Shown here piece after piece: positions 13,701 to 56,100 of a DNA stretch of 64,000 nt. The notes under the pieces are model-generated. The model did no database searches and was not told the DNA's origin. It saw nothing but the letters and a program-made list of their open reading frames with translations. Both the position numbers and the translations under genes were made by a program. The stretch's first letter is position 1. Each line of letters starts with the position of its first letter. The stretch is from Ectocarpus siliculosus (lineage: Eukaryota; Sar; Phaeophyceae; Ectocarpales; Ectocarpaceae): NCBI GenBank assembly GCA_000310025.1, contig FN649752.1, positions 1,177,654-1,241,653 on the forward strand. Direction: 5' to 3'.

Positions 13701-16700
13701 GCGGCGATTGCTGCGAGTGCACCTGCGAGGACGGAGAATATACCTGCGGCCAGTACTATGGTTACGCCTGCATTGACCCCGACGCCACGTGCGTGGACGA
13801 CGACGCTGTCACGGTTGACATGATGGAGAACTGCTACGACCCGTCGCGCATTGGAAACGGCGCCTGTGACAGCCTACTAAACAATGAAGACTGCGGTAAG
13901 TCTATGTCAAGTAGTTGCGATTGACCGTTTGCCCAACCCCCACATACTTTCGGGTGACCTGTGTTACCCACGATGGGCGTCATGCTGTCGCTACACGGCA
14001 CGTGCTGGGGTGTCCACCTAATGAAATGAGGTGGTACGATCCATGAGAGGCGTAGGCTCGTGTCTTTACTCTCCCATGAGCCCCAGCCTCTGTTCTCCCA
14101 CGTTGGTAGTGTAAAGCCATTCCGATCTCTCCTGGAGCTCAGCAGTTTGTGACTGTTGTCGATACCTACATGAAGGTTCTTTGTCCATCTGCCAAGAAAA
14201 CGTCTACAGTGTGCGCTTCTCCCCGTTCTCATCAAGCGAACGGGGTGACAAAGGTACATACGCACCCGTTGAAATACGCGTTTTCTGGCCTCACTGTGTC
14301 CTGAAAAAATACCCTCAATCAGTCGACCCTGGCAAGTTGTCCGAAAGCTTGGGGGTAAACTTCGACCATGATCCCTAAAACAATATTGTTGTTCCGTCCC
14401 TGCTCCCCAGCTTATGATGGTGGAGATTGCTGCGAGTGCACGTGTGACCCTTCTAGGTACCCATGGTACGATTCGGGTGTGGGTTGCCAGACCGGCATGT
14501 ATGGCGGCTTCGCCTGCATTGACCCGGATGCACCGTGCGTGGACGACGACATCGTCACCGCCGAGATGATGGACCTGTGCTCCACCGGCCAGATCGGGAA
14601 TGGGTACTGCGACGACAGCAACAACAGCCCAGAATGCGGTATGATCTGTAACGCGCCGCGTGTCAATTATATTTTGCACGGTGTTTCGCCTACTTATTCA
14701 TGCTTCTTTGATTTTCTGGTTGGGCGTGTATTCCTGTACCCTAGGATTTTGGGAATTTGCGCACATACGTGCTAAGCGGCAACGATATCACCAACATTCG
14801 AGAATATGCATATTCTTCGTGTTGGTGGGTAGTCTAGATGGGGTCCCGAACATGTCGAGGGGAGTCTCCCACGCCGTCCCATGAATGGACGCCACTTTCC
14901 TACGGAAGCTATACGATGTTTCAAAGTGGGTAGTTCCATGGAAGTAAACCTTTGGTTCCATGGAAGTTCGTCCAACTTCCTCCATGAAAGTTGCTCAACT
15001 TCGGTGTATATTGAAAATGACTTCCACGAAAGTGTGGCGCTCATCAAGGGTTGTTACCTCCATGAGAAGGAAGTCGCTTATTGGAAGTCCACACTTCCAG
15101 ACTTCTATCTGAAGCAACCTCAACTTTCATGAAAGCATCCATGAAAGTGATATTGCGACTTGCATGGAGGACGTGAATATTCACTACTTCCATGGAAGTC
15201 GAAATACCACCTTCAAAGATGTGCGACGAAAATTCCAGTGTTGTGGGGAGGTCGCTGTATCTTGTGCACAGTCAATCGACGCGAGATGTATAAAGTACGT
15301 CAACCCTTGGGCAACGTATTTTCAACACCAGTCGGGGTGTTGTATTGATTTTGACGCGGCAGCCAGCGAGGCGGAGAAAATGTGCAGCCAAGGCGACTGG
15401 ATCAGTCGCCAATGCCACATCCTTTTCGGTGACTGTTGTTGCACACTGCACCACAAGTCTTGTCTGTACTTCCAATGTTTTGAGAAAAATCTATAAACAT
15501 GGAAGACAGAACGCCCACCCTCCCGAGACGGGACTCCCGTGCATCGAGTTGGTAGAATTCTGTAGAGAGGGGGTTTACAATGTCGGCCGGGAGTAAACCA
15601 CCCGTTGAGAAAACACTACCGAACTCCCCGTATATATGTTTTTCTTCCTTTTTCTCGTTTTCCTTTATTTCCTGCCCGCTCAGCGTACGATGGTGGCGAT
15701 TGCTGCGAGTGCACCTGTGAGTCGCACGACGATGGCTACGAGTACTACTGCGAACCCGGAAGTTTCGCGTGCATCGACCCTGAAGCGGAGTGCGTGGACG
15801 ACGACGACAACACTGCGGAGCAGTACGAGCACTGCGGCTGGGTAACGCGCATTGGGGATGGCATGTGTGATGACGAAAACAACAAGGAAGAATGCGGCAA
15901 GTACTTTTTTCCCAGTAATCCACTACCAATGTGACGGATGGTCGTACGTTGCACCTTTTTTTTGTCGAAACTCAGTTTGCTTGAGTCGAAAAAACCGGCG
16001 TGTTTATTGAACGGGTTTTAGGGTGTTTATTGAATACAACAGCAGATTGTTGTGGACGAATCGATACCTGCCGGTGTTCTTCGCGAAGTAAAATCTACAG
16101 GTAGGTGTCGCGTTCTGCAAAAGTCGGCGAACCGATCGTTGACGGTTGTCGCCGATCTACATAGGTGGGAATACATGACTTTCATCCGCGTTGGAAACTC
16201 GCCCACCCAGGTATTGCTAGACTGTTGGCGTAAAAATGACATTCGCCCTCTTGCGTTTATCGGTGATTTTCATACGCTCAACCTCTGTCTTCCGTGCGCC
16301 CTCTCACCATGATAGAGCAATACCCATCGCACAATACTGCAGCGTCCGATGCCGGCGATACTGCACCATTATGGACGTGACTCGAGATCCTCTATCGTCC
16401 GTTATTCTCTCTCAATCATCGATCTTTCGATCAACACACCGCGGTTTTATTCATTGTGTATGGTGTGAATTTCCATGCCCCATATATATATGCACAACTG
16501 AAGCATCTCTGGTCTTTCATCACCTGATCTCTTTGTTCAAACTTATGATTCATTGAAATGGTCCCGACAGCCCGAGGAAAACCGGGAATATCATGGATGT
16601 GGGTTTCGTTGAAAAAATGACAATTCAACCCTCACAGTGTCGTCTCCCTTCCCCTCCCCAATACCCAAATTCACAGGCTTCGACGGCGGCGATTGCTGCG

Positions 16701-16858
16701 ATTGCACTTGCGTAGTTCCTTCTTCGGCTTGGTCTGACTATGCATGCCAAGAGGTCTACAACATCAACAGCTTTGACTGCCTCGACACGAGCGCCTCGTG
16801 CTACGGGGAGGAACATCTGTCGTATGAGCTCAGCTTTTCCTGGGACGACAACGAGTAA
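10709..16858 (+). CDS. Secreted LNR (Notch-repeat-like) cysteine-rich protein, copy 1
   Basis: Five exons: 10709-10883, 13692-13895, 14411-14638, 15684-15896 and 16677-16858, giving about 333 residues. All introns sit in phase 1 right after the codons for Glu-Cys, so whole exons can be added or lost without breaking the frame. Exon 1 encodes a signal peptide (MMMKTSSNRWLGLLG then a hydrophobic stretch to ATTSDQF). Four modules then cross exon boundaries. Each is C...IGNG.C...NN..EC at the end of one exon, joined to (F/Y)DGGDCC.CTC at the start of the next, followed by a C(I/L)D...CVDDD stretch. This resembles the LNR/Notch repeat (C..C...C..DGGDC), which binds calcium in known proteins, but one cysteine of the canonical six is missing. 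There is no transmembrane segment; the chain ends in an acidic SYELSFSWDDNE tail. Intron 4 has a GC donor (GCAAGT). The likely role is extracellular or cell-wall; the ligand is unknown. Confidence 0.85.
11978..13490 (+). mobile_element. TIR element with 8-bp target duplication, copy 1 (degenerate)
   Basis: The left end GGGTCTCCCACATTC..ACAGTTTTGCTAAAA and the inverted right end CAATCTCCCGCACTAC..ACAGTTTTGCTAAG define terminal inverted repeats of about 37 bp. They are flanked by CTCAAGTT (11970-11977) and CGCAAGTT (13491-13498), an 8-bp target duplication with one change. It sits in intron 1 of LNR copy 1, in the same place as the element at 32133-33002. The interior near 12000-12340 keeps some ATGGGC motifs. 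No transposase is visible. An 8-bp duplication suggests hAT-type mobilisation, which is inference. Confidence 0.6.
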
Positions 16859-32100: not shown

Positions 32101-35100
32101 AAAAAATATACGTAAAAGTTTTCGTACAAGTTGGGCCTCCCACACTTTCAATAGTTTTGCTAACAACGCCCATGGGCACTGTGTTGCCCATGGTTGACCC
32201 ATGGTTAACCCATGGGCATGCCCATGGGTGACCCGTGGACAGCCCATTGGCGGCCCATTGTTAAGGAGGACCCGGTTCGCAGGGTATCCGTCGATTGACT
32301 TTTACCAGAATCGGTACATTATACACCTTCGCATATGGCGTCAGCGGCAGGATACTGATTCGAATCTCCTTGGGTGCACATTTTTCTCCTGACTTGGACA
32401 TTTTCCCATGGACACAAAAGTGTGTCAGTCCTGAAGGCACCTCTTGGAGTCGATCCTACAAAGAACCTTGTGACACTTCCATCGAATTACCCGTCCTAGC
32501 CACAAGAGGTTCCCAGTTGAGGATAAATTATGTCGGCGCAGAGTGTTAGAGGACCCGATTCACAGGGTATCCGTCGATTGACTTTTACCAGAATGGGTAC
32601 ACCTTCGCACCATGGCACCCATGGGAAGCCCATGGGCGGCCGATGAGAGCCCTTCAACCGGAACCATTGTATTCCTTACCCAATGGATTATCTGCTTTGA
32701 AACCGGCATTATTGAGGCCAGTGACCCTTACGCTAACCCTAACCCCAAGCCCAAGCCCACACGATATGTGCTAGGTTGGCGCTGGTGGCTAAGTTCTAGG
32801 TTGATACGCCGGTGGCGAAGTTCTAGGTTCAAGTGCCCACGGTGGGCACTTCATGGGCGGCCCATGGGCGGCCCATCAAGTACCCATGGGCGGCCCATCA
32901 AGTACCCATGGGCGGCCCATCAAGTACCCATGGGCGGCCCATGGGTGACCGATGGGTGTCCCATGGGCGGTTTAGCAAAACTGTCAGTAGTGCGGGAGAT
33001 TGCGCAAGTTGATGCGAGGCTCTCTGCAGTTTGTACCGAAACCAACCGCAGCACCACCGAAGGTTGAGATATACAACGATGCAACCAATGAAAGCAGTGA
33101 CCGTGTGCTTTTGCGTCGCCCCCGGGAGGCAGGCGCACCTACCTCCCGGGGGGGCCTTGTAATATGTATACCCTTTGACTTTGTCCCTCGCTCGCCGTCC
33201 CCAAGGCTTCGATGGCGGCGATTGCTGCGAGTGCACCTGCGAGGACGGAGAATATACCTGCGGCCAGTACTATGGTTACGCCTGCATTGACCCCGACGCC
33301 GCGTGCGTGGACGACGACGCTGTCACGGTTGACATGATGGAGAACTGCTACGACCCGTCGCGCATTGGAAACGGCGTCTGTGACAGCCTACTAAACAATG
33401 AAGAATGCGGTAAGTCTATTAAGTAGTTGCGATGAACCGTTTGCCACACTCGCACATACTTTCGGTTGACCTGTGTCCTCCATGATGGATGTCATGCTGT
33501 CGCTACACGGAACGTGCTGGGGTGTCCACCTAATGAAATGAGGTGGTACGATCCATGAGAGGCGTAGGCTCGTGTCTTTACTCTCCCATGAGCCCCAGCC
33601 TCTGTTCTCCCACGTTGGTAGTGTAAGTTCGTTCCGATCTCTCCTGGAGCTCATTAGTTTGTGACTGTTGTCGATACGTACATAAAGCTTCGTTGTCCAT
33701 CTGCCGTACAGTGTGCGCTTCTCCCCCATCTCATGAAGCGAACGGGGTGATAAAGGTTCATATGACACGTTGAAATACGCGTTTTCTGGCCTCACTGTAT
33801 CCTGAAAAAATACCCTCAATCAGTTGACCCTGGCAAGTTGTCCGAAAGCTTGGGGGTAAACTTCGATCATGATCCTTAAAAAAATATGTTTGTTCGATCC
33901 CCGCTCCCCAGCTTATGATGGTGGAGATTGCTGCGAGTGCACGTGTGACCCTTCTAGGTACCCATGGTACGATTCCGGTGTGGGTTGCCAGACTGGCATG
34001 TATGGCGGCTTCGCCTGCATTGACCCGGATGCACCGTGCGTGGACGACGACATCGTCACCGCCGAGATGATGGACCTGTGCTCCACCGGCCAGATCGGGA
34101 ATGGGTACTGCGACGACAGCAACAACAGCCCAGAATGCGGTATGATCTGTAACGCGCCGCGTGTCAATTATATTTTGCACGGTATTTCGCCTACAAGGGA
34201 GAGACCGGTGCCTTATCCATGCTTCTTTGATTTTCTGGTTGGGCGTGTGTTCCTGTACGCTAGGTTTTTGGGAATTTGCGCACATAAGTACTAGGTGGCA
34301 ACGACAGCACCAACATTCCAGATTGTGCATATTCTTCGTGTTGGTGGGTAGTCTAGATGGGATCCCGAACATATTGAAGGGAGTCTCCCACGCCATCCCA
34401 TGAATGGACGCCACTTTCCTACGGAAGCTATTCGATGCTTCAAAGTTGGTACTTCCGTGGAAGTAAACCATTGCTTCCATGGAAATCCGTCCAAGTTGAA
34501 ACTGAAAGTGCCTTCCACGAAAGGATGGCGCTCATCAAGGCATGACAAGTCGTGTATTGGAAGTCCACACTCCAGAGTTTTATCTGAAGCAACCTCAACT
34601 TTCATGAAAGCATCCATGGGAGCGATATTTCGACTTCCATGGAGGAAGTGGATATTCGCTACTTCTATGGCCGTCGAAATACCACCTCCATGGAAGTGCG
34701 ACAAAACATTCCAGTGTTGTGGGGAGATCGCTGAATCTTTTGTACAGTCAATCTACGCGAGTGTGTAGAATACGTCAACCCTTGGGGCAGTATTATTTTA
34801 CGGGAACCTGCAAGAACAGCAGGGGCATTGTATTGAAAATTACAATCTCCCACTACTGACAGTTTTGCTAAACCGCCCATTCGTCGCCCATGGGTCACCC
34901 ATGGGCGGCCCATGACGTTCCCATGAAGTGCCCACTGTGGGCACTTGAACCTAGAACTTCGCCACCGGCATATCAACCTACATGCAGAACTTAGCCACCT
35001 GCACATCAACCTAAAACGTAGCCACCAGCGCCAACCTGGCACGAATCGTGTGGACTTGGAGATAGGGTTAGGGTTAACGATAGGGTTTAGCCGCTATAAT

Positions 35101-37878
35101 GCCGGTTCCAAAGCAGATAATCTATTGTTAAGCAGTACATTGGTTCCGGTTGAAGGGCTCTCATTGACCGGCCGTGGGCTTCCCATGGGTTGCCATGGGC
35201 ATACCCATGGGTCAACCATGGGCACCACGTGGTGCCCATGGGCGACTCATGGGTGAGACCCATGGGCTGTCGATGGGTGTCCCATGGGCGTTTAGCAAAA
35301 CTGTAGAAAGTGTGGCAGACCCGAAAATTATGACGCGGCAGCCATCGAGGCGGAGAGAATGTGCAGGCAAGGCGAATGGATCAGTCGTCAATGCCACATC
35401 CTTTCGGTGACTTGTCTGTACTTCCAATTGGTATTGAGAGAAATCTAAAAACATCAAAGGAAGAACACCTCCCCACCCGAGACGGAACTCCCGTGGATTT
35501 GTGTAGGTCGATTTATTGACAGAGCGGGTTTACAATGTCGGCCGGGAGTAAACCACCTGTTGTCGAGAAAACACTACCAAACCCCCCGTATATATGTTTT
35601 TCTTTCTTTTTCTCGTTTTTCGTTATTGCCTGCTCGCTCAGCGTACGATGGTGGCGATTGCTGCGAGTGCACCTGTGAGTCGCACGACGATGGCTACGAG
35701 TACTACTGCGAACCCGGAAGTTTCGCCTGCATCGACCCTGAGGCGGAGTGCGTGGACGACGACGACAACACCGCGGAGCAGTACGAGCACTGCGGCTGGG
35801 TAACGCGCATCGGGGATGGCATGTGTGATGACGAAAACAACAAGGAGGAATGCGGTAAGGAATTTTTTCCCGTCAATGTCGCTGACGGTCGTACATTGCA
35901 ACTTGTTTGTGCCGGTGCTCAGCTTGCTTGAGTCGTAAAATCCCATGTATGGTGAACAAGGGGCCCTCCATGTGGAAACCGTGGAACACCCCCCTCGGTG
36001 TTTGCCATCGGGATTGGGTTTTCGTCGCTTGGCAACGACGTTGTAAAACAAGCCAATTCACTTCGTGAACTCGGCAACCAGGTTACCGTTTTTTTTTTTT
36101 TCCCTCTGTTTCTTTTTTGGCGGTAACCATAATGGTGGTCGAGTAGATCATGTTGTGCGGGGTGGAGAACCCTCGCTCCACGCAAGGGGGATGATCGCAC
36201 CACGTTGTGTTAAAATGGTCAAGCATCCTCGAGGCAGTTACACAGTGCTTACAACTGTCTCTGGAAGTGAAAGCACCAGAAAATAAATAAGTCAATAGTC
36301 TACGCAGCTGTCATCCGTACGCAAGGAAGTAAGCACAAGATGCCGAACACCCTTAGCAGGATGCAGCTCACCCTTCATGCGACTCGCCGAATACCTCACG
36401 GCGCTTCGCGCTTGGTGATGTGAGAGCCTGGTCCGGTGAGAACCCGGCGTGCTCCGTCCCGGCTTTGTAGGGATGCGAGGTCAATGGTCTAACGACTACG
36501 GCATGCACGACTATGAGTACACCCCTCCCCCCCGGGCCAAGATTGACATGCAGGATAGCCACATTGGGCGGCTCACTTGCAGCCGTCTACTGTATAGGAT
36601 TTAGTGTGACGGCTTTCGTGCCGCGTTCTAAAACCCATACTATAATTCTCTTTTATTTTATAGGCTTTAGTATCGCCTATACCATACAATAGACCTCCCC
36701 CTCCTCGCGACCGAGATTGACAAGTAGCTTAGAGGGGGTGGGTGGGATCCCGGGAGGGTGGGATCCCGGGTTGGTGGGATCCCGCGCGCGAAAACAAAAA
36801 AAGCTCGGGACCCGGGATTTGGTCTAAATGTCCTCACCAAAATGTCGAAACCCCGGGGATTAGTTCTAAATATCCCCCCGGGGACATGTAAGGCCTAACC
36901 CCCCCCCCCCCCCCCGCGACCACGAACACGTACCTTAGGTGGTCCGACCTTTCCAGGTGCAGGGCCCCTTGTGGTGAACGAGTTTTTTTGTGGGTATTGA
37001 TAGAATACAACAGCAGATTGTTGTGGACGAATCGATACCTGCCGGTATTCTTCGCGTAGTAAGATCTACAGGTGTGTGTCGCGTTCTGTAAAAGTCGGCA
37101 ATCCTCTCGTTGACGGTCGTCGCCCATCTAAGTGGTCGTATGATACAAGTACATGAATTTCATCCGCGTTAGAAACTAGCCCATCCGGGTACTGCTAGAC
37201 TGCTGGCGCAAAATGACGTTCGCGCTCTTACTTATCGGTGATTTTCATACGCTCAACCTCTGTCTGTGTGCCGTGCGCCCTCTCACCATGATAGAGCAAT
37301 ACCCATCGCCCCATACTTCAGCGTTAGATGCCGGCGATTCTGCACCATTATGGACGTGACTCGAGCTCCTCTATCGTCCCTCATTCTCTCTCAGACATCG
37401 ATCTTCGATCAACCACATTACCTCGGTACCATTCATTGCGTGTGGTGTAAAATTTCATGTCTCATGCATATATAAATGCACCGCCGGAATACCTCTGGTC
37501 GTTCATCACCAGATCACCAGTGCTCTTCGTTCTAACTTATAATGCCCAACTAAATGTTTCATTCAAATGGTCCCGACAGTTCGAGGAAAATCGGGTGCAT
37601 CATGTTCTGGAAAAGTGATAATTTAATCCTCACAGTGTCATCTCCCTTCCCCCTCCCAACAAAACAAACTCGCAGGCTTCGACGGCGGCGATTGCTGCGA
37701 TTGCACTTGCGTAGTCTCAGCTTCGGCTTGGTCTGACTATGCGTGCCAAGAGGTCTACAACATCAACAGCTTCGACTGCCTCGACACGAGCGCCTCGTGC
37801 TACGGGGACGAAGATCTCACGCCCGGTGTTGGATCAATGTCGTATGAGCTCAGCTTTTTCTGGGACGACTACCAGTAG
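29114..37878 (+). CDS. Secreted LNR (Notch-repeat-like) cysteine-rich protein, copy 2
   Basis: Five exons: 29114-29285, 33206-33409, 33912-34139, 35642-35854 and 37676-37878, total 1020 nt or 339 residues. Exon sizes and phases equal those of the first copy except exon 1 (one ATG fewer) and exon 5 (21 nt longer, adding DLTPGVGS-like residues). It has the same signal peptide and four modules of the IGNG.C...NN..EC | DGGDCC.CTC type. Intron 4 here has a normal GT donor (GTAAGG), unlike the GC donor in copy 1. Introns are larger because of a 540-bp palindromic element (intron 1), TIR elements (introns 1 and 3) and a dispersed repeat (intron 4). The frame is open throughout, so it is probably functional. 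It is likely an extracellular partner or redundant duplicate of copy 1. Confidence 0.85.
30957..31496. mobile_element. Palindromic element with long inverted arms and TTA duplication
   Basis: The left arm starts GGCTGACTCTTATGG and the right arm ends CCATAAGAGTCAGCC. Outer arms match for about 75 bp, including GGCCCGACGGATTTTTTTGG and a C-run. An inner inverted repeat pairs 31157-31211 with 31256-31311 almost perfectly around a 44-base loop. TTA lies on both sides (30954-30956 and 31497-31499). A 3-bp TTA/TWA duplication with a GG-starting terminus is typical of PIF/Harbinger elements and their MITEs (family knowledge). There is no coding sequence. The 100-N gap lies in the right arm. Confidence 0.65.
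31322..31421. other. Assembly gap, 100 N
   Basis: Exactly 100 unknown bases, probably a placeholder of arbitrary length. It falls inside the right arm of the palindromic element. Comparison with the left arm suggests roughly 110 bases are missing. Confidence 0.95.
32133..33002 (+). mobile_element. TIR element with CCCATGGG-rich interior, copy 2
   Basis: The left end is GGGCCTCCCACACTTTC..TAGTTTTGCTAA and the right end is the inverse of CAATCTCCCGCACTACTG. Flanks are TACAAGTT (32125-32132) and CGCAAGTT (33003-33010), remnants of the 8-bp duplication seen better in copy 1. The termini hold dense arrays of CCCATGGGC, ATGGGCGGCCCATGG and CCATGGGTGACC words. Such subterminal arrays are often transposase-binding sites (inference). 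It lies in intron 1 of LNR copy 2, the same site as copy 1, so it predates the gene duplication. Confidence 0.65.
34843..35322 (-). mobile_element. TIR element with CCCATGGG-rich interior, copy 3
   Basis: It is inverted relative to the other copies: it starts CAATCTCCCACTACTGACAG and ends with the inverse of GGGTCTGCCACACTTTC. It is flanked by a perfect 8-bp duplication GAAAATTA at 34835-34842 and 35323-35330. The LNR copy 1 intron has no element at the matching place (about 15345), so this insertion came after the duplication. The interior has both subterminal CCCATGGG arrays. No transposase. Confidence 0.75.
35988..36540 (-). repeat. Dispersed repeat family, copy b
   Basis: Reverse orientation of the family at 6486 and 54083. 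Like the 54-kb copy it extends past a poly-A/T tract into the GTTGCCAAGCGACGAAAACC segment. It lies in intron 4 of LNR copy 2 and is absent from the matching intron of copy 1. Confidence 0.8.
36736..36920. repeat. GGTGGGATCCCGGG tandem words and C-run
   Basis: Three close copies of GGTGGGATCCCG(G/C)G occur at about 36738-36787, then GGGACCCGGG, CCCCGGGGA words and a run of about 17 C at about 36898. Each word is a near palindrome. Intronic, no coding reading. Confidence 0.6.
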
Positions 37879-38488: not shown

Positions 38489-39573
38489 CGTGAATCGTGA
38501 TGGAAAACGACAGGGGTCACAGCTCACGGTGTAGCTTAGAATACGCCACGGACTCTTAAGACTCTCCTTGTCGAGATGATGGAATGACGGCAGCTGCAGT
38601 GCAACGAAACGTTGAAACCAAGCAATTTGGGAGCGTTACACAAAAACTAAGTCACATTGCAGGCAGGGGTGGAGAGAGAAAAAAAAAACACATCGCATTG
38701 TGTCATCAAGGCGGAAGATCCAGAGCCTCTCTACTCTTGTACTGTAGCTTCTCTTCTTGCACAACTCGTCTCGAATATTGCTTTCCGCATCCACCACATG
38801 ATGAACAGTCTCCTACAGCTCTGCAGCAGGTATGCGCCCTTTGTCTGGGCTTGCTGTACGAGCTATCATACTGTGTGCACACAGGTAAGAGAGAGTTGGC
38901 AGAGAAGGGCGGTGTGGCAGACAGACGGGGGTACGAGAGCGCGAAAAGTACACGGGATAAAACAAGAGGATAGGCTAGCCTATACTTCTATGTCGCGCGG
39001 TCGTACTCCTGTAACAGAGTGACCGGGTGTCGGGGATACGTGACATATCCTCAAAGCACACTTTCATCCCACAGCACGGCTCAGTATAGCACCACGGGGA
39101 GCTGTAGGGAGAGATGCCAGATGGGACCTCTGCTGGAATGTCGTGACAAAATATTGTGTGATGTGGTCGCACAAGATAGTTTTCTCTGGACTCATACTTG
39201 TACATCGTTTTCTGGTGCCACCACATACAGTACTGGTCATCCTGCAAATCCCTTCACAAGAAATTGGTTCGGACAACTGGCAGTATACCCCTTGAAGACT
39301 TGGTGAACAGAAGGTCATGAGTTCGACGCCCCGTCAGAACACCTATTTTTTTTTCTATACGGTACAGTATTTCAAAAAAAAAATCTTCTCTTGGTTTTTG
39401 CCCCCCCAACGTGCTCGTTTTTGCCACCCTGAATCTTTGGCCCCTATAAACATCAAAGAACTGCTAAACAGACTTCGAAATGTGGTTGTACATGTAGCTC
39501 CAGTAGCCAAAAATACTCATGAAAAAAGGAAATTAGTAAACATTTTTTGTTGGCGCGTACGCGAGAAAAAAAT
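38489..39573. other. Stretch without a recognised gene
   Basis: Between the end of the duplicated block and the tyrosine-recombinase element I see only short frames without motifs and A-rich tracts. Confidence 0.45.
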
Positions 39574-39836
39574 AGGAAGGTTTGTTCGTCGAAGCAGATA
39601 GAATAAACTGGTGTTTATTTTGTAACAGTCGAATTAGAATTTGGCTTCATTTTCTACCGGAAACCCAGGGTCACGGTGTTTGGAATTATTAGTCTATAGT
39701 TGGGGGTGTCATTCCGTGATCGAGTCCACGCAGGGGCTGTAGCAAAGTCGGGTAACGGGTGACAGCTACAGAGCGCGTGAAGCAACGGAAGGACAGCAGC
39801 AGGCGCCTAACGCAGTAGCGGCGGCAGTTTAGAAAA
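39574..39836 (+). repeat. Split direct repeat A1
   Basis: Starts AGGAAGGTTTGTTCGTCG and ends GGCGGCAGTTTAGAAAA. It is almost identical to 45519-45781; differences include ggtaacgggtg versus ggtaacgtgtg. It marks the left end of the element. Confidence 0.9.
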
Positions 39837-40989
39837 GGGCGGGACGGGACACGGCGCAAGCATTGGGGAAGTGACCAGCACGCGACTCTCCATATAAAGG
39901 TGTGTACTCGTGTCCAACATCCATCGTGTCGGCCGTGTTCCTATTCGCGTCCCGCTACTCTTGTGACCTCACCGCTGCGTGCATTTAGCACGAGGGGGGA
40001 GGGTGCAGTAAGATAAGCGGCGGCAAGCCAACGCAGTCTCGCTCGCCGCGCCGCTCAGATAGGTCCCTTCCCAAACATGGGATGCGGTTCATCCCAACCG
40101 AGACGTACTCTCGCTGAAGAAAAAAAATGCGGTTCGTCCCAACCAGACGTACTCTCTCTGAAGAAAAAATTCAACGGCAAAAAGAAAGAGCGGGGCCTGT
40201 TGTATGGTCGCACGCTGACTTGTCGCGGTTGATAGCAGCCATTGTACTGCACGGGGTGGAGGAACCCTGCGGCATCGGACATAACCAATCGACCCGCGGC
40301 AGTAGGGCATGATGCTGTCACGATTATGCACATGAGGCAGGTGCCTTGTTTTCTGTTTCCCCCGGCTTACTAGGGACTACTTGCCGGTACAATCTTGTCT
40401 GTGCCGCGCACAGAGGGGCATATAGCTGAAGGAATCGACGATAATATGCCCACTCACGTAAGCAATCGTCTCCACGGATGGTATTGACAAGTCCCCACTG
40501 ATGGTATCGACAAGTCCCATGGCATACAAAGCGGCCGCATACGTAATCGGAAAGTGCATTCAACAGCATTCACGGGAACGGATAAAAGCAAAAACACATG
40601 CATGCGAGAGAAAGACTCAAAGAAAAAGACTGAAAAACAATGAAGACGAGAAAAAAAAAACGAGACAGCGAACTACGTGCTGTATGCATAAGGAAAAAGA
40701 AGATGAGAAAAAAATAGGGGGGGGAGGTGGATGTGACACGCGAGGTTCGAACTCGCGAGGAACGTCAGGTAGCGGTCCATGTGAGTGCATCACGGTCTCG
40801 AGGGGCATCACGTCAAATTTATTGCCGCCGTGACACAAACCTTCTATAAGAATACGTCACGTCCATCGACGATTAAGCGACCAAAAACGCCCGGACAGCA
40901 ATTGATGCATGCCAAAAACTCGTCAACCTGCCGTAGGATTGTCTATGCGGAAGTGATCTCAATGAAAATAAAAAAAACAAGGACACGCA

Positions 40990-42725
40990 CCAGCACGGGA
41001 CGCGCCAATAGTGGAAGCACTCGTCCGTGCTGTTGGCGAGTGGAAGTTAACCGATCTCAACGCAACGAAACACGAAGTCATACATGTATCAGCACGGGAT
41101 GCGCCAATGAGTGGAAGCACCCGCGCTGTTGGCGGGTAGAGTTAACCGAATTCAACGCAGCGGTAGAAAAATACCACAAATCATGCATCAGTACGGGACG
41201 CGCCAATGAGTGGAAGCACCCGTGCTGCATATGTGATGTCAGCCTCAGCACGGGACGCGCCAATGAGTGGAAGCACTCGTGCGGTTGGTGAGTAGAGTTA
41301 ACCGATCTCAAAAAGAAAGAACAAAACGCCGTACATGTATCAGCACGGGACGCGCCAATGAGTGGAAGCACCCGCGCTGTTGGCGAGTAGAGTTAACCGA
41401 ATTCAACGCAGCGGTAGAAAAATACCACAAATCATGCATCAGTACGGGACGCGCCAATGAGTGGAAGCACCCGTGCTGCATATGTGATGTCAGCCTCAGC
41501 ACGGGACGCGCCAATGAGTGGAAGCACTCGTGCTGTTGGCGAGTAGAGTTAACCGATCTCAAAAAGAAAGAACAAAACGCCGTACATGTATCAGCACGGG
41601 ACGCGCCAATGAGTGGAAGCACCCGCGCTGTTGGCGAGTAGAGTTAACCGAATTCAACGCAGCGGTAGGAAATACCACAAATCATGCATCAGTACGGGAC
41701 GCGCCAATGAGTGGAAGCACCCGTGCTGCATATGTGTTGTCAGCCTCAGCACGGGACGCGCCAACGAGTGGAAGCACTCGTGCTGTTGGCGAGTAGAGTT
41801 AACCGATCTCAAAAAGAAAGAACAAAACGCCGTACACGTATCAGCACGGGACGCACCAATGAGTGGAAGCACCCGCGCTGTTGGCGAGTAGAGTTAACCG
41901 AATTCAACGCAGCGGTAGGAAATACCACAAATCATGCATCAGTACGGGACGCGCCAATGAGTGGAAGCACCCGTGCTGTATATGTGTTGTCAGTTTCAGC
42001 ACGGGACGCGCCAACGAGTGGAAGCACTCGTGCTGTTGGCGAGTAGAGTTAACCGATCTCAAAAAGAAAGAACAAAACGCCGTACACGTATTAGCACGGG
42101 ACGCGCCAATGAGTGGACGCACCCGTGCTGTTGGCGAGTAGAGTTAACCGAATTCAACGCATCGAAAACGAAGTCGTACACGTATCAGTACGGGACGCGC
42201 CAATGAGTGGAAGCACCCGTGCTGCATATGTGTTGTCAGTTTCAGCAAGGGACGCGCCAATGAGTGCTGTTGGCGAGTAGAGTTAACCGATCTCAAAAAG
42301 AAAGAACAAAAACGCCGTACACGTATCAGTACGGGACGCGCCAATGAGTGGGCGCACCCGTGCTGTTGGGCGAGTAGAATTAACCGATCTCCACGCATCG
42401 AAAACGAAGTCATACACGTATCAGTACGGGACGCGCCAATGAGTGGAAGCACCCGTGCTCATATGTGTTGTCAGTTTCAGCAAGGGACGCGCCAATGAGT
42501 GGAAGCACCCGCGCTGCGTACAAGTATCATCAGTGCGGGTCGCGCCAATGAGTGGAAGCACCCGTGCTGCATATGTGTTGTCAGTTTCAGCGAGGGACGC
42601 GCCAATGAGTGGAAGCACCCGCGCTGTTGGCAAGTGGAGTTCACCGTATCCAACGCATCGGAAAAAAAAAAAAAAACACGTATCAGCACGGGACGCGCCA
42701 ATGAGTGGAAGCACCCGTGCCGATG
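40990..42725. repeat. Minisatellite of about 22 hairpin-forming cores, higher-order period about 250 bp
   Basis: The core CAGCACGGGACGCGCCAATG followed by AGTGGAAGCACCCGTGCTG recurs about 22 times. The outer nine bases CAGCACGGG and CCCGTGCTG are complementary, so each core can form a stem with a loop of about 21 bases. Cores are separated by alternating spacers, giving a higher-order unit of about 250 bp (for example starts near 41267, 41518 and 41767). The many overlapping frames here are repeat artefacts. The array lies in the 5' half of the tyrosine-recombinase element. Confidence 0.85.
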
Positions 42726-43043
42726 GCGAACCGGGGTTCACCGAATCCAAGAAAATATATATATAAAAAAAAAAAAAAGAGAAACCATCGCTAGTGTTCC
42801 AAAGAGAGAAATATTCGGGATTGGTCGACGTCCGGTGACCGTAGCGTCAGCAGCAATAATCACTCCATTCAATCCACAGGCGTCGAGAATGAACTAACGC
42901 GAGCTCGCGATATAACAACGCGTCGTTCTGGGCCCGACGAAAACCCACGTCAGATAGTTTCGCCCGAAGATAGGATTTGTAGACCATTCTAACTGCAGAT
43001 CCAGGCGCGCGATCGACTACGCCCACGATGAAGAGGAAAAGAA

Positions 43044-43991
43044 GTGTTCCCGCAACGCCGCCCTGACGCTCGCCCGCCGCCTGCCGCCGGTCCGCTGCTT
43101 ATACGACTCCAACCGCGACCAGATGCCGACACGGGCCTCCACGCGGAGCGGCAGGGCAGCGGCTGGGCAAGCAGGGCGAGGTCGGGCGGCGACACCTTCG
43201 ACACCACGCACGAGAGGTCTACCGCGCGATCGGTGGCGAGCTCGACGGCTCGCCCCTCGACGCGCAGCGGATCACGTACTCCCGCGAGGCGTCGAGCGGT
43301 ATCCTCCTCGCGAGCGCCAGGGACAGGCACCCGCGGCGACCCCCCCGCTGATGAGACTGAGCTCGCTTCTCTCCGCGGGCTGGTGGACGGCCTGAGGGAG
43401 GAGCTGCAGCGGAAGCGCGATGAGGCTGCCGGTGATCGCCAGCAGCTTCAAGCAACGATCGACGACCTGATCGCCACCCAAGCAGCAGGACCTGGCCTTC
43501 CGGGGGGGGGTGCAACTTGTGGGCACAACCGCCCCACCATCGGCCTCTCGGGCCCCCGCTACACCCAGCGCCGAGGCGGCTAAGGCTACGGCAAAGGATA
43601 GAGCGCGGATGTGGGGGGACCTCCGCCGGGTAAAAGCGTGGCTCATCCTGGGGCGGCCCCCGGCAGTTTCAAAACTGTCGCAGATGGAGTGGCAATCCTT
43701 GCTTCGCAAAGGCGTCCTGGTGACAGAGAAAGTGGCGGCATCGCTCGACACGCTCGTGGTTACTGCTTCGCCTTCAACTCGTCGTCCGGTTGCCATGATC
43801 GTAACTGCCCACACATCCACGCCCAGAACCCTTCCCACGCTAGGCGGGGAGCGTCCGAAACTCCGGCAACCGGCGCGCGCGGCGTTGGCCACGGCAACGG
43901 GGGAGGGCGCGGAGGAGAGGCGCGCGCCGCTGGCGAGGGCGGCGCGAGACCCAAGGCCGCTGGCTTCTTCACCCACGGGAAAGACAAATAG
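43044..43991 (+). pseudogene. Gag-like region with coiled coil and CCCH zinc finger (frameshifted)
   Basis: The first part (43044-43583) is basic and Ser/Arg/Pro-rich, then has a coiled coil (ELASLRGLVDGLREELQRKR, followed by LQATIDDLIATQ). A G-run at 43502-43510 seems to shift the frame: the +1 frame continues with KDRARMWGDLRRVKAWLI and MEWQSLLRKG. The original frame returns by about 43720 and encodes YCFAFNSSSGCHDRNCPHIH, a C-x8-C-x4-C-x3-H finger like those in Gag proteins of DIRS/Ngaro elements, and a Gly/Arg-rich tail to TAG at 43989. The likely role is nucleic-acid binding or particle formation. At least two frame changes are needed, so this copy is probably broken or has sequence errors. 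Confidence 0.6.
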
Positions 43992-45239
43992 GGGTGCGGG
44001 CTCTCCCGCGTAGCGGGGGGGCCTACCTCGGATGGCAGCGCACCTGCGGCTAAATCGAACGGCAGCACGCCGGTCTACACGAGGTTGGCTCCAGGGCTAT
44101 CAGCAGGTTCAGGACCTGGGACAGGCAGGACGGGACTTTGTTACCGACGTCTTGGCATGCAGCTCGTCGAGCACTCAGTTGCGTCTTCGTCTAGAAGGAC
44201 TTACACGTCAGGCTTCAACTCTTGGTGCACGTTTCGCAGGCTGACGGAGAAGCCCAAGTTCCTAGGGCAACGTGCCGGGGACCTTCATGTGTGGGAGTTG
44301 ATAGACTTCGTAGCCTGGTGTTTCGAGTCTGAGGGTAATCTAGCGAGTACAATATCCGGAAAACTCACGGCTGTACAACATTTTCATAGGCTGGAAGCTT
44401 CTGTCGAGCTAGACTTGTCGTCTCCGATGTTGAAATGTGCGCTAAGGGGGATTGCGAGGAACCACGTGGCTGTGGGGACGGTACGCCGTGTGCGCCTGCC
44501 TGTGTCTTGGCGTATGCTGCTGGACGGGGAAAGCGCAAGCCAGAACTGGGGGGAAGGGGGCAGAGTGATGTGGCTGTGTCTGTGCTTGTCCTATCTCTTT
44601 ATCACACGGTCTGATGAGGTGTTCGCGAATGATGCGGGCAGGGTGCATGAGGCACACTGTCTTACGAGGGCGGACGTAGCATTGTTTGCTGGCGAGACGC
44701 AATTAGTCTTTAGTCACTATCGTAGAGCAGACCGTGTCGAAATGAGGTTTAGAGGGCACAAGGCCGATCAAGAGCAGAAAGGAAACATACGGGTTCGTAC
44801 GCGAGACGAAGTCACCGGACCGCAGTCAGGTGTGAGAGCACGCGGTGGCGCGGTGGCTCTTGTGGTGGAGCTGTTATCGTGTCATGCGACGTTCCCTGAC
44901 TCCGCACCGTTGGCTTCGTACCGTAGTGGAAGAGCAGTGAGAGTAGTGAGGTATACTGCTGCCCTCCGTGCACTCAGAGAAGTGGTAGCGAGGTCGGGGC
45001 GTAACCCCCAGGAGTACGCGTTGCAATCGTTGCGAATTGGAGGCGCGACGGCTCTTGCATCGGGCGGAGACATCGCAGAACGAGTGATTCAGAGAGAAGG
45101 GAAGTGGAGGTCGGATGCATACAAGCCGTACGCGCGAAACAATGTAGAGGATTCGCGGCGAGTGTCACGGAAACTTACAGACGGCAGTAGGATCGTATCG
45201 AGACAGCCGGGGGAGGGGACCGTCTGGGGGAACGGATAG
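43992..45239 (+). CDS. Tyrosine recombinase (transposon integrase)
   Basis: The frame is open from the Gag TAG to TGA at 45239 and lies in the Gag-finger frame. The first internal ATG begins MQLVEHSVASSSRRTY near 44157; no ATG lies between the TAG and that point, so readthrough or another start mechanism may be used. The N-terminal part resembles the core-binding domain (SSRRTYTSGFNSW). Counting from codon 44085, the catalytic domain shows Arg175 (FITRSDEV), a FRGHKADQ segment with a candidate lysine, QSLRIGGATALA with Arg317 but Gln314 where His is usual, Trp341 (GKWRSDAY), and Tyr346 or Tyr349 as nucleophile. The family cuts and joins DNA through a 3'-phosphotyrosine link and would insert a circular DNA copy. 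The protein looks intact except for the His to Gln change, which some families tolerate. Confidence 0.8.
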   Translation, partial: GCGLSRVAGGPTSDGSAPAAKSNGSTPVYTRLAPGLSAGSGPGTGRTGLCYRRLGMQLVEHSVASSSRRTYTSGFNSWCTFRRLTEKPKFLGQRAGDLHVWELIDFVAWCFESEGNLASTISGKLTAVQHFHRLEASVELDLSSPMLKCALRGIARNHVAVGTVRRVRLPVSWRMLLDGESASQNWGEGGRVMWLCLCLSYLFITRSDEVFANDAGRVHEAHCLTRADVALFAGETQLVFSHYRRADRVEMRFRGHKADQEQKGNIRVRTRDEVTGPQSGVRARGGAVALVVELLSCHATFPDSAPLASYRSGRAVRVVRYTAALRALREVVARSGRNPQEYALQSLRIGGATALASGGDIAERVIQREGKWRSDAYKPYARNNVEDSRRVSRKLTDGSRIVSRQPGEGTVWGNG

Positions 45240-45280
45240 TTGACTTATTCGGTAGTCGTCCAGAAACTGACCTCGATGTG

Positions 45281-45519
45281 GGTGTTGTAGAATGGTGTGT
45301 ACCATTTGAGGACTTGGTCAGTTTTGGGACTCCTGCGTTTGCAGTCGTAGTCCCCCGGCTAGTATTTGTGGGGAGAGAGATGGATTTGTAAGAGTTGACG
45401 CCGGCCTTTGCAGCTAACGCGGCCGGAGAGACGATGAGCGTTTCGTGCGTCTCTCTCCCCAACACGTAGCCTAGAAACCGAAGAAATAATGAAGCAATTC
45501 GAAAGAAAACAAAATAAAA
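45281..45519 (+). repeat. Split direct repeat B1
   Basis: Starts GGTGTTGTAGAATGGTGTG and ends AAACAAAATAAAA. It abuts A2 directly and begins just after the recombinase frame ends. Confidence 0.9.
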
Positions 45520-45781
45520 GGAAGGTTTGTTCGTCGAAGCAGATAGAATAAACTGGTGTTTATTTTGTAACAGTCGAATTAGAATTTGGCTTCATTTTCT
45601 ACCGGAAACCCAGGGTCACGGTGTTTGGAATTATTAGTCTATAGTTGGGGGTGTCATTCCGTGATCGAGTCCACGCAGGGGCTGTAGCAAAGTCGGGTAA
45701 CGTGTGACAGCTACAGAGCGCGTGAAGCAACGGAAGGACAGCAGCAGCCGCCTAACGCAGTAGCGGCGGCAGTTTAGAAAA
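45519..45781 (+). repeat. Split direct repeat A2
   Basis: Second copy of repeat A, lying between B1 and B2. A 68-bp spacer (45782-45849) separates it from B2. Confidence 0.9.
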
Positions 45782-45849
45782 TCCCGCCCTCCCATCCCTT
45801 TTCTTTCGAAGGTGGGGGCATAAGTTCGGGAATATTCGGTATCTAGTCA

Positions 45850-46088
45850 GGTGTTGTAGAATGGTGTGTACCATTTGAGGACTTGGTCAGTTTTGGGACT
45901 CCTGCGTTTGCAGTCGTAGTCCCCCGGCTAGTATTTGTGGGGAGAGAGATGGATTTGTAAGAGTTGACGCCGGCCTTTGCAGCTAACGCGGCCGGAGAGA
46001 CGATGAGCGTTTCGTGCGTCTCTCTCCCCAACACGTAGCCTAGAAACCGAAGAAATAATGAAGCAATTCGAAAGAAAACAAAATAAAA
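45850..46088 (+). repeat. Split direct repeat B2
   Basis: Second copy of repeat B and right end of the element. It is nearly identical to B1, which suggests recent activity or gene conversion. Confidence 0.9.
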
Positions 46089-46664
46089 CACCTCTTTTTC
46101 CTTACTGACCATTTTCTCGGGAGTTCTGAAGTGAAGTTAATATTTTCGCGGGAGGGGATGAAACCTGATCATCCCTTGTCTTTATAAGTTTTCCTTGGCC
46201 GCCTATCCTATCCGAGCATGATAGAAAAATAATCATGCAAGGATTCGACTTCCAAGTGCCGCAAATAACAAACAGATCATATATTTGGCCCATCCCAACC
46301 GATCTTATATTACGGTCCAGAGGGAGTACAATTTCCCATTGCTCCCCCAAGCTATTTCAACTGTAGTACTCGGTACTACCGTACACAGACATGCTTCTCC
46401 TCTCGACCATTTCAACTACATAGTACCAGGTACTACCATACACAGACATGTTACTGCTCTCGACGTTTCACTTCTCGATACACCTACACGAGTATTGTCT
46501 CCCCACACCATTTTCGCGGGCGGCAGCACCAACAACAAACACGCGACAGCCTCGATATACTCAAAATCCCGTGTACCGGGAGAGGAGAGGTGTTGCCTGG
46601 CCTGTCCCAGTGCCATATTTTCCCCCCGACACTATTTCCGTTCATCGTGTATTGGATGACTCGA
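46089..46664. other. Spacer with a 60-bp direct duplication
   Basis: Between the recombinase element and the last recognised exon of the dynein-like gene. GTACTACCGTACACAGACATG and its near copy GTACTACCATACACAGACATG mark two units of about 60 bp at about 46369-46470. A short minus-strand frame near 46484-46714 (NSVGGKIWHWDRPG) could be a further C-terminal exon of the dynein-like gene, but I cannot support it. Confidence 0.4.
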
Positions 46665-47151
46665 CTACAACTTGTGGCCGTCGTTCGTTGGCTGGGTTGC
46701 TGTACGAATGTCAAGTGGAACTCGTTGGGCCACCTCTGTTTTTCTCCGGCTCGCCATTATTTTGATTTCTCCCACCAGCCTCGCTTCGCGGGCATGCGTA
46801 GCTTCCGGGTCCAGCACGCCGGCAACGAGGTCGACCACGGGAGCGTTGGAAAGCCCTGTCGCTACAGCGCTCGCGCGAGCTGCTGCATCTACCACGCGAT
46901 CAACTTGTTTTCTTCGTCTGCGAGTTGAGGCAACAATCTCTCCATCCGCGGTATCTTGCTTCGGCCATGAATTGGGAGGAGCGTTGTTCCGATTTCCTGC
47001 CAAAGCTTTTGGGTACAGCGGGGATGGTGCTGTGGGGAGCGCTGCGCCGCCACATGCACCAGCTTGTTGCAGAACAATGAGGCTTGCAGCAAGATGCATA
47101 TTCACGGCCGCACCGTCTACGCCCTGCCCGTTGGCCTCCACTTCCATGTAC
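46665..47151 (-). CDS. Dynein-like C-terminal exon
   Basis: It follows acceptor CGCTGCAG at 47152. VNMHLAASLIVLQQAG corresponds to FGLH.NA.IT......LL in dyneins. RKQVDRVVDAAARASAVATG and PVVDLVAGVLDPEATHAREA parallel the W+.DL..R+..+..W and FWL.GFFFPQ.FLT segments. It ends at TAG (46665), short of the usual final C-terminal domain, so a truncated tail or a further exon is possible. Confidence 0.5.
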
Positions 47152-53100: not shown

Positions 53101-56100
53101 CTCGCCTCGAGAGCGGGTGGAAGCGCTCGCACCATCTCGTCCTGAAGCCTACCACCCATCGTCTTCGACATCTCGAGCCCCGGCTGGCATCTCAGTCCCA
53201 TGCCGCCTGTCACGAATGGGGGAATTGTGGCGTCCTCACTCTCCTTGGATCCGCTGTTGCTCGACTCGTTGTCATCGGAAGGGGCGGATAACCCCGATAT
53301 GCCCTCTCCTGCAGCAAGTCCCTGACTTGTCCCGTCCGAGGAAGATTCACAACCCTTAGTGTCCAACGAACAGCCGCCGCCATCGTCTCCAGCCGCCAAG
53401 CCCACAGAGTCTACGCCTCCGAATCGAATCAGTTGAACACCAGAGAGGGCCTCCGGCGAGTCTTCCAAGAACACCATCGATGTCACGTCGTCAGAGGATT
53501 TTAAGGGCTGGGGGTTTGCAAAGTCGAGAGATCTCGCGAAAAGAATCAGTCGAAACCCCATTTTTACCACGAATGTGGTGGAGGACTGCGGCTCTTCACC
53601 GACCGTTACAGAACCAAAACACTCGCTACTTCCACCGCCGTTACCGAACGCGTTGGACTCTGGCTTGCCGTCTTGCTTCCTCCTTGGTGGCTTTTTGTGT
53701 CCCGCTGCTTCGACTGGAAGCACGTTGGACCCGAGGAACAACGCCAAATCGATGTGAACCCCTCCCTCCGTGGAGCAAACCGGTAGGATTTCCCCCTTCG
53801 CCGCGCACGCTGCAATGATGTCCATGCTGACCATAGAGGCGGGCAAGAGAGCTTCCAGTCGAGAGTTTCCTGGGTAGACGCGCCGAAGCCATCTGTACAT
53901 GCCACGTGGATATTTCATTGCGAACGTGGTGGACCCGAAGCTGATTTCGAGGGATGACCTCCCATGTTGTTGTGCGATATAGAGATAGGTCGAGGATTCA
54001 ACAGAGAGGCAGAACTGTTTCCAAAGCATCTAGAAGGAGGACAAAGGAGGTGAAGAAGCAAACGGTTCGCCTCCCATGACCTTCGGGGGGGGGGGGGGGG
54101 GGTACTCATAGTCGTGCATGCCGTAGTCCTTTGACCATTGACCTCGCATCCCTACAAAGCCGGGACGGAGCACGCCGGGTTCTCACCGGACCAGGGTCTC
54201 ACATCACCAAGCGCGAAGCGCCGTGAGGTATTTGGCGAGTCGCATGAAGGGTGAGCTGCCATCCTGCTAAGGGTATTCGGCATCTTGTGCTTACTTCCTT
54301 GCGTACGGATGACAGCTACGTATAACTTAATTTATTTTCTGGTGCTTTCACTTCCAGAGACAGTTGTAAGCACTGTGTAACTGCCTCTAGGAAGCTTGAC
54401 CATTTTAACACAACGTGGTGCGATCATCCCCCGTTGCGCGGAGTGAGGGTTCTCGACCCCGCACAACATGATCTACTCGACCACCATTATGGTTACCGCC
54501 AAAAAAAAAACCGAGGTAAAAAAAAAAAAAAACGGTAACCTGGTTGCCGAGTTCACGAAGTGAATTGGCTTGTTTTACAACGTCGTTGCCAAGCGACGAA
54601 AACCCAATCCCGATGGCAAACACCGAGTGGGGGGCTTGTTTTACAACGTCGTTGCCAAGCGACGAAAACCCAAACCCCGATGGCAAACACCGGGGGGGGG
54701 CGGCTTGTTTTACAACGTCGTTGCCAAGCGACGAAAACCCAACCCCGATGACAAACACCGGGGTGGGGGGGGGGGTGATACGTATGGCGATGCGGCGTAA
54801 GCAAGGCGGTGTCGGTCGCATTCTGCGAAAGTGATGAATTTGAGCCCATACGTTAAACCATGCCGGTTGCAAGTTCTAGACACAAGGTTTCGGAACCTGT
54901 CACAATCTCTCGATGCCGTCAAGATTTGGCTTACCATCCTGGCTGTTGTGGTTGATCCAAACACTCATATTTCTGGGAACTTCGAGGCCATCATCGTAGT
55001 TGAAAAGCATACACCCGTTACCTGAGAGCGATGCCTTCTGGATCCAAAATAAGGGGCCACTTGGGCGTGCTCAGGGTCAATATTGCGGCGTCCATGAAGG
55101 CCGGGTGAAACGGCAGAGAGGAGGGGGTGACAGCACCCGCACACTTTCCGGGACTGGCGTCGGAATCATCGCCCCCTCCCCCACGACCGCCGTCGGATTC
55201 ATCGCCAGACTCCTCACCACAGTCGTCTGCGACATCGACATCGGGAGGATACGTCCAGCTTTGCAGTTGCGTCACGTTGGTCAACACGCCCGATGCGAAA
55301 TTTCCAACGCGATACCGTTCCAAGCTGAGAGCACTTGTGACGGAGAGCGCACTCTCGCCAGTCTTTGGTTTCGGAACATCGTCGATGTTTGACTCCTGGT
55401 TCGGAACAGGTGTTGATGCCGCTGCTGGCTCTTCGTCCTTCGATGCCTCCGCCCACGGACGGCTGGTGGGTATGCCGCATCTTCGGGCCGCGTCCCTTGC
55501 TCTGTCTAAGGCGATAGCCCGCAGGGTGTGTGGGAGATGGGCTCCAAGGCAGGCCATGTTGGCGAAGCAGAGGGCATCTCCCGCGAAAAGCTCGGCGGTT
55601 GTCGCCAAATCATGGAGTTCCTGTGTCATTGGTCGGTACACTCCGTCAACGTTGCAACCTTTGCCAAACACTTATGGCTAGTACATGGTTCTTGTGTTGA
55701 TAACTCTACATAACGTGCCCAAGGTGACCTGCACAGCAACGTATAGAAATATCTCAATAGGCTTGTTTTCTACTCGGTACAAAGTACGCGAGAGCCCGCC
55801 CAAGACGAGGTTTGCTGCACCGTATAGTCGCCGATCAAGTAGACGGGAGACAGAGTCTGGTCCGTATGATGAGGCACCACATTTTCAGTCTGCGGCAATT
55901 ACATAGTTCGTCGGCCGAAGAATTAACCTGGTCCGCCTTGCTCGATGCTAGGAACTATCGCGGCAACCTGTGGGTGGAGACGAAACGCAACGCCGCGGAC
56001 AACGTAAGACAACGATAGTTTTGACAGCTCCAGGCACGATGATACCTGTCGGCACGTAGAGGCGAAATCCTCGATAGCCCCGCTCATGATTCCAAGTTCT

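Follow-up and report, generated by a model that had tools for sequence, protein, structure and literature searches.

The window analyzed here, a stretch of 64,000 nucleotides of the Ectocarpus siliculosus genome (contig FN649752.1, positions 1,177,654 to 1,241,653), contains a tyrosine recombinase (YR) element bounded by split direct repeats, which is a non-autonomous derivative, without reverse transcriptase (RT), of a Ngaro-type YR retrotransposon (Table 1). Self-comparison of the window revealed two pairs of direct repeats, one of 271 nt with 99% identity (39566-39836 and 45511-45781) and another of 239 nt with 100% identity (45281-45519 and 45850-46088), arranged in the Ngaro order A1...B1-A2-B2, with B1 directly adjoining A2 and a 68-bp spacer separating A2 from B2. 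A begins with GGAAGG at 39575 and 45520, and B terminates in AAATAAA. Another copy (L002) aligns to 39568-46087 over 6,527 bp at 99.6% identity and has identical ends, and common end bases were found in the 18 left and 34 right flanks of copies that were read (among the latter, L024 and L060 are one locus and some follow a single B). Self-comparison and shared ends thus confirmed the layout, with B1 abutting A2, described in an earlier note made from the letters of the window, and unrelated segmental duplications are excluded as a source of the repeats, since many copies share the A and B boundaries.

Table 1. Features of the split-repeat element, in window coordinates
Feature	Position	Strand	Basis
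A1, left split direct repeat	39575..39836	+	Self-comparison; ends shared with other copies
5' array, 20 copies of a 39-nt motif	41090..42722	+	Inside the element
Gag remnant	42951..43988	+	Aligns to the L009 Gag region, 96.5-97.4%; gaps of 511 bp and 84 bp
Gag zinc finger, CCCH type (C-x8-C-x4-C-x3-H)	43764..43820	+	Similar to L009 and L007 Gag frames
TAG between Gag frame and next frame	43989..43991	+	Sequence
Proposed exon 1 end: 38 codons and 1 base of the RT-RNase H frame, to the proposed donor	43992..44106	+	L009 alignment
Joined recombinase frame, 415 aa and stop, ATG at MQLVEH	43992..45239	+	Frame 43992-45236
J3, CAG/GT junction, 2,054 bp of RT-RNase H missing versus L009	44106..44107	+	
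RT-RNase H frame, 3' end (remnant of the RNase H tail), overlapped by the YR frame	44107..44241	+	
B1	45281..45519	+	Repeat and shared ends
A2	45520..45781	+	Repeat and shared ends
B2, right end of the element	45850..46088	+	Repeat and flanks of other copies

The left flanks are A-rich: the base before A1 was A in all 18, and A was also found at -3 in 16 of them, so that they resemble the circle junction AAAATAAAA/GGAAGG (here and below, a slash marks a junction). No target site duplication was seen by eye, in a nonsystematic reading of the 15 copies with both flanks read. A-rich flanks without target duplication would fit YR integration of circular DNA at A-rich sites. Several copies end in a single B, without A2-B2 (L033 [3696-3893], L008, L012, L014, L015, L028, and L031), perhaps through B1/B2 recombination or as another integration product. 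Extra A repeats, at spacings of 569 bp (G000 C12:1582108/1582677) and 452 bp (C10:2008833/2009285), suggest tandem or solo A-B tails.

The 415-aa recombinase frame lies directly behind the Gag TAG and in the reading frame of Gag; the Gag-like and recombinase parts, first described as about 90 bp apart, are instead contiguous in frame across this stop. We take the cysteine-histidine pattern in Gag to be a zinc finger, a label assigned by eye. The catalytic set of YR (R, HxxR, W, and Y), placed by position, was found in most of the full-length YR rows aligned, with a His-to-Gln change in the window copy and L001. Pfam gave no match to the window recombinase frame at E ≤ 1, and no YR was matched among solved structures. 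An hhalign comparison of YR with P1 Cre put HxxR, W, and Y in register (E 0.0035, probability 9%), and a more distant group has a PF00589 match (E 0.16) downstream of its RT. The absence of RT from the element, already read in the earlier note, held: none was recognized by eye among the 23 frames of ≥100 aa in 39000-47000, and a genome search with the RT frame of a relative (L007, see below) gave no place in the window among the matches listed (58 of 487 candidates scored).

Relatives that retain the reverse transcriptase

Searching the 189.5-Mb genome with the recombinase protein gave at least 107 matches (107 scored of 730 candidates), and searches with A and B at least 40 scored matches each, all at 99-100% (336 and 355 candidates); all these counts are lower bounds. 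Two diverged relatives, L006 (70% YR identity) and L007 (63%), carry RT-RNase H (RT-RH) beside YR. The RT frame of L007 had at least 62 matches in the genome, several of which adjoin YR copies 93-98% identical to that of the window, and four of these loci (L009 to L012) were taken for comparison. In L009, L010, and L011, the Gag-region frame consists of 564 aa, two pieces, and 542 aa, respectively; all three also have RT-RH (690-768 aa) and a 392-aa YR frame. The YR frame overlaps the end of RT-RH in L009 and L010; in L011, RT-RH stops 55 bases before YR. The Gag frame of L009 continues past the TAG in another frame, and in L010, L011, L007, L035, and L036 Gag and RT are in one frame with a single stop between them.

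The positions of A1 and B1-A2 in L009 to L011 match those of the window copy, with the same A start, and B2, also read in L009 and L010, has the same end; the L011 sequence compared ends upstream of B2. Identity between the window and the RT-bearing copies is 96.5-98% in Gag and YR (97.8-98.1% for the YR part of L009 to L011) and 82-91% when the alignment includes the repeat-rich 5' part. L012 retains RT sequence but differs in the position of its Gag gap and terminates in a single B. The Ngaro order of Gag, RT-RNase H, and YR is present in L007 and L009 to L011, and the window copy is without RT-RH. Because these RT-bearing relatives share its ends and its Gag and YR at such identity, the window element is neither a single chance deletion nor a new class.

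Profile support for a Ngaro RT and YR is weak. RVT_1 was matched in four of five relatives, with a best E of 0.005, and the matches of L009 and L007, at 15 bits, are below the curated cutoff of 29.6; the RT of the relatives had no match in PDB at E ≤ 1. Motifs read by eye in the relatives are what we take to be YVDD and RNase H-like motifs, the latter (LADG) followed by only 68 aa in L009. A methyltransferase together with split direct repeats, the PAT-type combination, was not found, with no methyltransferase family at E ≤ 0.1 in Pfam, whose sensitivity here is low. Rfam, viral contig, tRNA scan, and solved-structure searches gave nothing useful.

Of the two possibilities raised in the earlier note, a non-autonomous derivative using RT in trans gains support from the RT-bearing relatives with the same boundaries and from the high-copy RT-less family, movement in trans being what we infer; an undescribed element type does not, given Ngaro-type relatives with the same ends. 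A single chance deletion is excluded by this high-copy family and its relatives.

A candidate intron spanning RT and RNase H

The segment missing at J3, 2,054 bp with respect to L009, starts with GT and ends with AG. The junction in the window reads CTATCAGCAG/GTTCAGG, i.e., CAGCAG/GTTCAGG, and the longer copies have CAGCAG/GTGTGG as the donor and GACTGGCAG/GTTCAGG as the acceptor, an exact GT...AG loss relative to the longer element, as expected of retrocopies of spliced element RNA. Through the join, YR is read in phase with 38 initial RT codons, behind the Gag-TAG. Allowing ≤2 mismatches, this junction pattern occurs at 109 places in the genome (none for a reversed control), and 23 of the 24 inspected were YR-bearing element copies. 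The other, L026 (C1:1116900, 1 mismatch), aligned to neither YR nor Gag and was dropped, leaving 23 for the tree described below, and 109 is thus a slight overcount. Eight places have the intact donor pattern, seven of them exactly (control, 1), and all seven exact places adjoin RT matches of the L007 search; RT-bearing copies with an altered donor would escape this pattern. RT-less copies far outnumber related copies that retain RT. A 1,341-aa frame in L003 was set aside as meaningless and uninformative on RT, since its middle (about 4795-7679) reads N.

A homologous loss was found in a second family. L007, whose family has 63% YR identity to the window, has a donor (CAGCAAG/GTGGGA) and an acceptor (CGCTGGCAG/GAACAA) at positions corresponding to J3, in phase 1. 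The predicted join, searched with ≤3 mismatches, occurs at a single place in the genome, with 1 mismatch (control, 0). This copy, L033, matches L007 up to the donor and resumes at the acceptor, with ca. 2,060 bp of RT-RH missing between homologous GT...AG sites and only three bases (AGG) shared at the junction; its open frames are a Gag of 496 aa and, past an in-frame stop, a YR of 422 aa. The L007 RT frame contains 4,161 repeat pairs of ≥3 bp at a spacing of 1,500-2,300 bp, and because there are so many candidates a chance hit on this donor/acceptor pair is unlikely.

We scored splice sites in six RT-bearing elements (L009, L007, L034, L035, L036, and L038), which represent five families, L035 and L036 being near relatives; L006 (partial), L037 (broken frames), and L039 (other layout) were left unscored. 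A TAG stands directly before the RT frame in all six, and in each, of the 6 to 16 GTs within the initial 200 nt of RT, the one with the best score has phase 1. All have a phase-1 AG, picked as homologous to J3, in the W-Q region of the RH end, with a donor-acceptor span of 2,054-2,069 nt. With the observed score as threshold, shuffled sequences yielded p values of 0.018-0.096 per element, or 6.9e-4 over the five families (Fisher). In five of the six elements, no Met occurs in the YR frame until after the core motif (placed by eye in L038; the exception is L009), and for this reason YR would seem to need the join.

Both the GT-AG junction and its recurrence in the second family point to splicing as the likely cause. 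We consider it very probable that RT-RH lies in a spliceable intron and that the spliced RNA, which would encode YR, has sometimes been retrotransposed in trans. This Ngaro-type family encodes Gag, then RT-RNase H after the TAG, with the YR frame overlapping the RT-RH end. In the proposed sequence of events, the ca. 2.05 kb of RT-RH would be flanked by a donor that follows the TAG by ca. 115 nt and by an acceptor in a W-Q codon near the RH end. Unspliced RNA would give Gag and RT-RH, and in spliced RNA the YR frame would continue from the initial RT codons, behind the Gag-TAG. As A1 and B1-A2-B2 would be kept in both RNAs, the RT of RT-bearing copies could reverse transcribe the spliced one, and YR could integrate the product. 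From such an event the window element would descend, having lost two Gag pieces and multiplied as a non-autonomous family. The boundaries, the RT-bearing relatives, the recurrence of the exact junction, the in-frame join, the multiple origins, and the near-neutral change of YR in RT-less copies are observed; removal by the spliceosome, expression of YR from the spliced RNA, and mobilization in trans are putative steps. More generally, it is probable that in several Ngaro families of this genome the whole RT-RNase H is a conserved retained intron, with splicing as the normal switch from polymerase to recombinase; each round of expression would then yield an RT-less parasite RNA, and such parasites would repeatedly have taken over copy number.

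Copies differ in their Gag gaps. Those of the window type lack 511 bp of Gag at 43755 (J1) and 84 bp at ca. 43880 (J2) with respect to L009, L020 has J2 without J1, and the L004 type has a different gap; the window and L004 types have the same J3. J2 (43880) and the L004-type gap, neither of them GT-AG, have ends ca. 8 nt apart (1515 and 1523 in the reference). An RT-less subfamily (L004, L005, L008, and L013 to L018) has one base fewer just before the junction, and in L004, L005, and L008 the Gag end and YR share a single open frame, with no TAG between them. In a tree with 31 rows (23 RT-less, 7 RT-bearing, and L006), the RT-less rows were not one clade and their forced monophyly was rejected (approximately unbiased [AU] test, p 1.6e-4), as was that of the RT-bearing rows (p 4.7e-5), the fewest changes of RT state being two. 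The RT-less copies have more than one origin.

YR evolves near-neutrally in the RT-less copies. Among the 12 rows of the window type there were 8 synonymous and 27 nonsynonymous changes (neutral, 2.68 to 1; p 0.70), versus 13 and 6 between the window type and RT-bearing copies (p 2.1e-4 against neutral), and the two sets differ from each other (p 0.0015). Synonymous and nonsynonymous counts were 24 and 26 in six RT-bearing rows (p 0.002) and 24 and 46 in nine L004-type rows (p 0.18); all these tests have small counts and treat rows as independent. Ratios of nonsynonymous to synonymous rates (dN/dS), likewise from small counts, were 0.12-0.24 for L009 paired with L010 and with each of four RT-less rows, 0.58 for the RT-bearing pair L009/L029, and 0.66, 0.79, and 2.64 for pairs of RT-less rows, among them L032, which contains a stop. 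The RT counts of L009/L010 (38 synonymous and 89 nonsynonymous) were not used because part of L010 is read in another frame. Near-neutral YR and the lost catalytic His fit copies moved by others.

Alternatives to splicing

Several observations weigh against splicing as the origin of J3. The case is drawn from genomic DNA, and J3 taken by its sequence alone is ambiguous because of the 6-bp overlap (GCAGGT) shared at the junction, which a microhomology deletion could also leave. J1, J2, and the L004-type Gag gap are not GT-AG (J1 and J2 each with a 1-bp overlap as read), so that other deletion processes also act. No clear polypyrimidine tract was seen, several elements have further AGs of the same phase close to the acceptor, and the donor matrix was a generic one. 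The J3 common to the window and L004 types could stem from gene conversion. In the second family the loss is represented by a single copy, L033, and spliced copies of the L034, L035/L036, and L038 families were not found in the genome. Nor is the layout universal, as in L039, of a distant RT group, the YR frame follows the RT frame without overlap. The sole hit of the searches for spliced copies of the L034, L035/L036, and L038 families, at C10:2932022, was an unrelated coding sequence.

The alternative that survives best is that J3 arose by DNA deletion, or by a template jump of RT, between the GCAGGT repeats, once or twice, and was then amplified in trans without splicing. The 6-bp repeat at J3 and the two other, non-GT-AG deletions in the same element speak for it, and the L009 RT frame holds 61 similarly spaced pairs of repeats of ≥6 bp; we nevertheless regard it as unlikely, since RT is also missing between the homologous donor and acceptor in the L007 family, where just three bases are shared, donor and acceptor phases agree in all six scored elements, and RT-less copies have more than one origin.

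Somewhat less likely again is one ancestral J3 event in the window family, shared by descent or gene conversion, after which RT-bearing copies regained RT by recombination. All these copies reside in one genome and are 91.6-100% identical over the YR part, and L020 has J2 in common with the window type, but the rejected monophyly of both RT-less and RT-bearing rows argues against this, and the L033 family, at 63% amino acid identity, is too diverged for conversion. That the RT-less copies are an independent Crypton-like DNA transposon with its own YR and no need of RT is highly improbable: YR is the sole large frame left and near-identical copies are many, but the end bases are identical to those of RT-bearing copies, the catalytic His is lost in the window copy and L001, the 27 nonsynonymous to 8 synonymous YR changes of the window type are near neutral, and an exact GT-AG loss is not a consequence of DNA transposition.

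Comparison with known systems and other repeats

L1 is a long interspersed nuclear element (LINE), without YR or split repeats. Its human copies include spliced integrated retrotransposed elements (SpIREs), which are genomic copies retrotransposed from spliced element RNA, as proposed for the RT-less copies described here, one class with protein supplied in trans (PMC5860796). L1 splices within the 5' untranslated region (5'UTR) or from the 5'UTR to ORF1 (PMC5860796), whereas here the whole RT-RH would be removed; moreover, SpIREs are called generally dead ends in that text, and here the putative spliced form outnumbers its donors. In the Arabidopsis Ty1/Copia element EVD, the splicing state also sets which proteins are made (shGAG), with POL in the unspliced form only, but splicing serves Gag and is coupled to early polyadenylation (PMC8892269); here, the second exon would encode the integrating enzyme, and the copies retain the 3' repeats. 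SIRE, the truncated form of VIPER, is likewise a non-autonomous YR-retrotransposon derivative keeping end pieces, although these are described as just short pieces of the 5' and 3' ends, with no mention of a splice junction in the passage concerned (PMC6681497).

Among Ngaro elements, the available parts of the literature report four types in Cafeteria (PMC8547959) and 15 families in Ectocarpus (PMC12477816). The RT-bearing relatives fit the published architecture (PMC8547959 and PMC4157794), with A1-[ORFs]-B1A2B2 around Gag, RT-RNase H, and YR open reading frames (ORFs) (PMC8547959), from which the window element differs in being without RT-RH. The string “splic” is absent from the available text of PMC8547959 and occurs 5 times in PMC12477816, none on Ngaro in the places shown; both “intron” and “splic” are absent from PMC3266345 and PMC9210276. 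A spliced Ngaro RT intron was not found in the titles and abstract starts listed by searches of one open-licence library, and “spliced” occurs once in PMC4157794. If true, a conserved RT-RH intron would explain in these families both how YR is expressed despite its overlap with RT and often no usable start codon, and the repeated rise of RT-less copies. It would also be a non-LINE case of spliced retrocopies that became abundant, unlike the L1 SpIREs in the available text of PMC5860796.

Much of the 5' part of the window element is a repeat array, whose 39-nt motif has complementary ends and occurs 20 times at ≤3 mismatches. The 5' leader of L007 also has a long tandem array (14 copies of a 122-bp unit, L007 7677-9387). 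Folding of two stretches of the L007 array was unremarkable; one copy of the 39-nt motif folds unusually well (z -3.0), and another stretch, one base short, gave a z of -0.4. A packaging or leader role for these 5' arrays is a guess.

Outside the element, several blocks of 13658-16818 and 33172-37817 match at 90-98%, 19.5-21 kb apart, as if these regions were two copies of another repeat. A further pair of direct repeats, with 95-96% identity and a separation of 47.6 kb, lies at 6479-6825 and 54085-54432.

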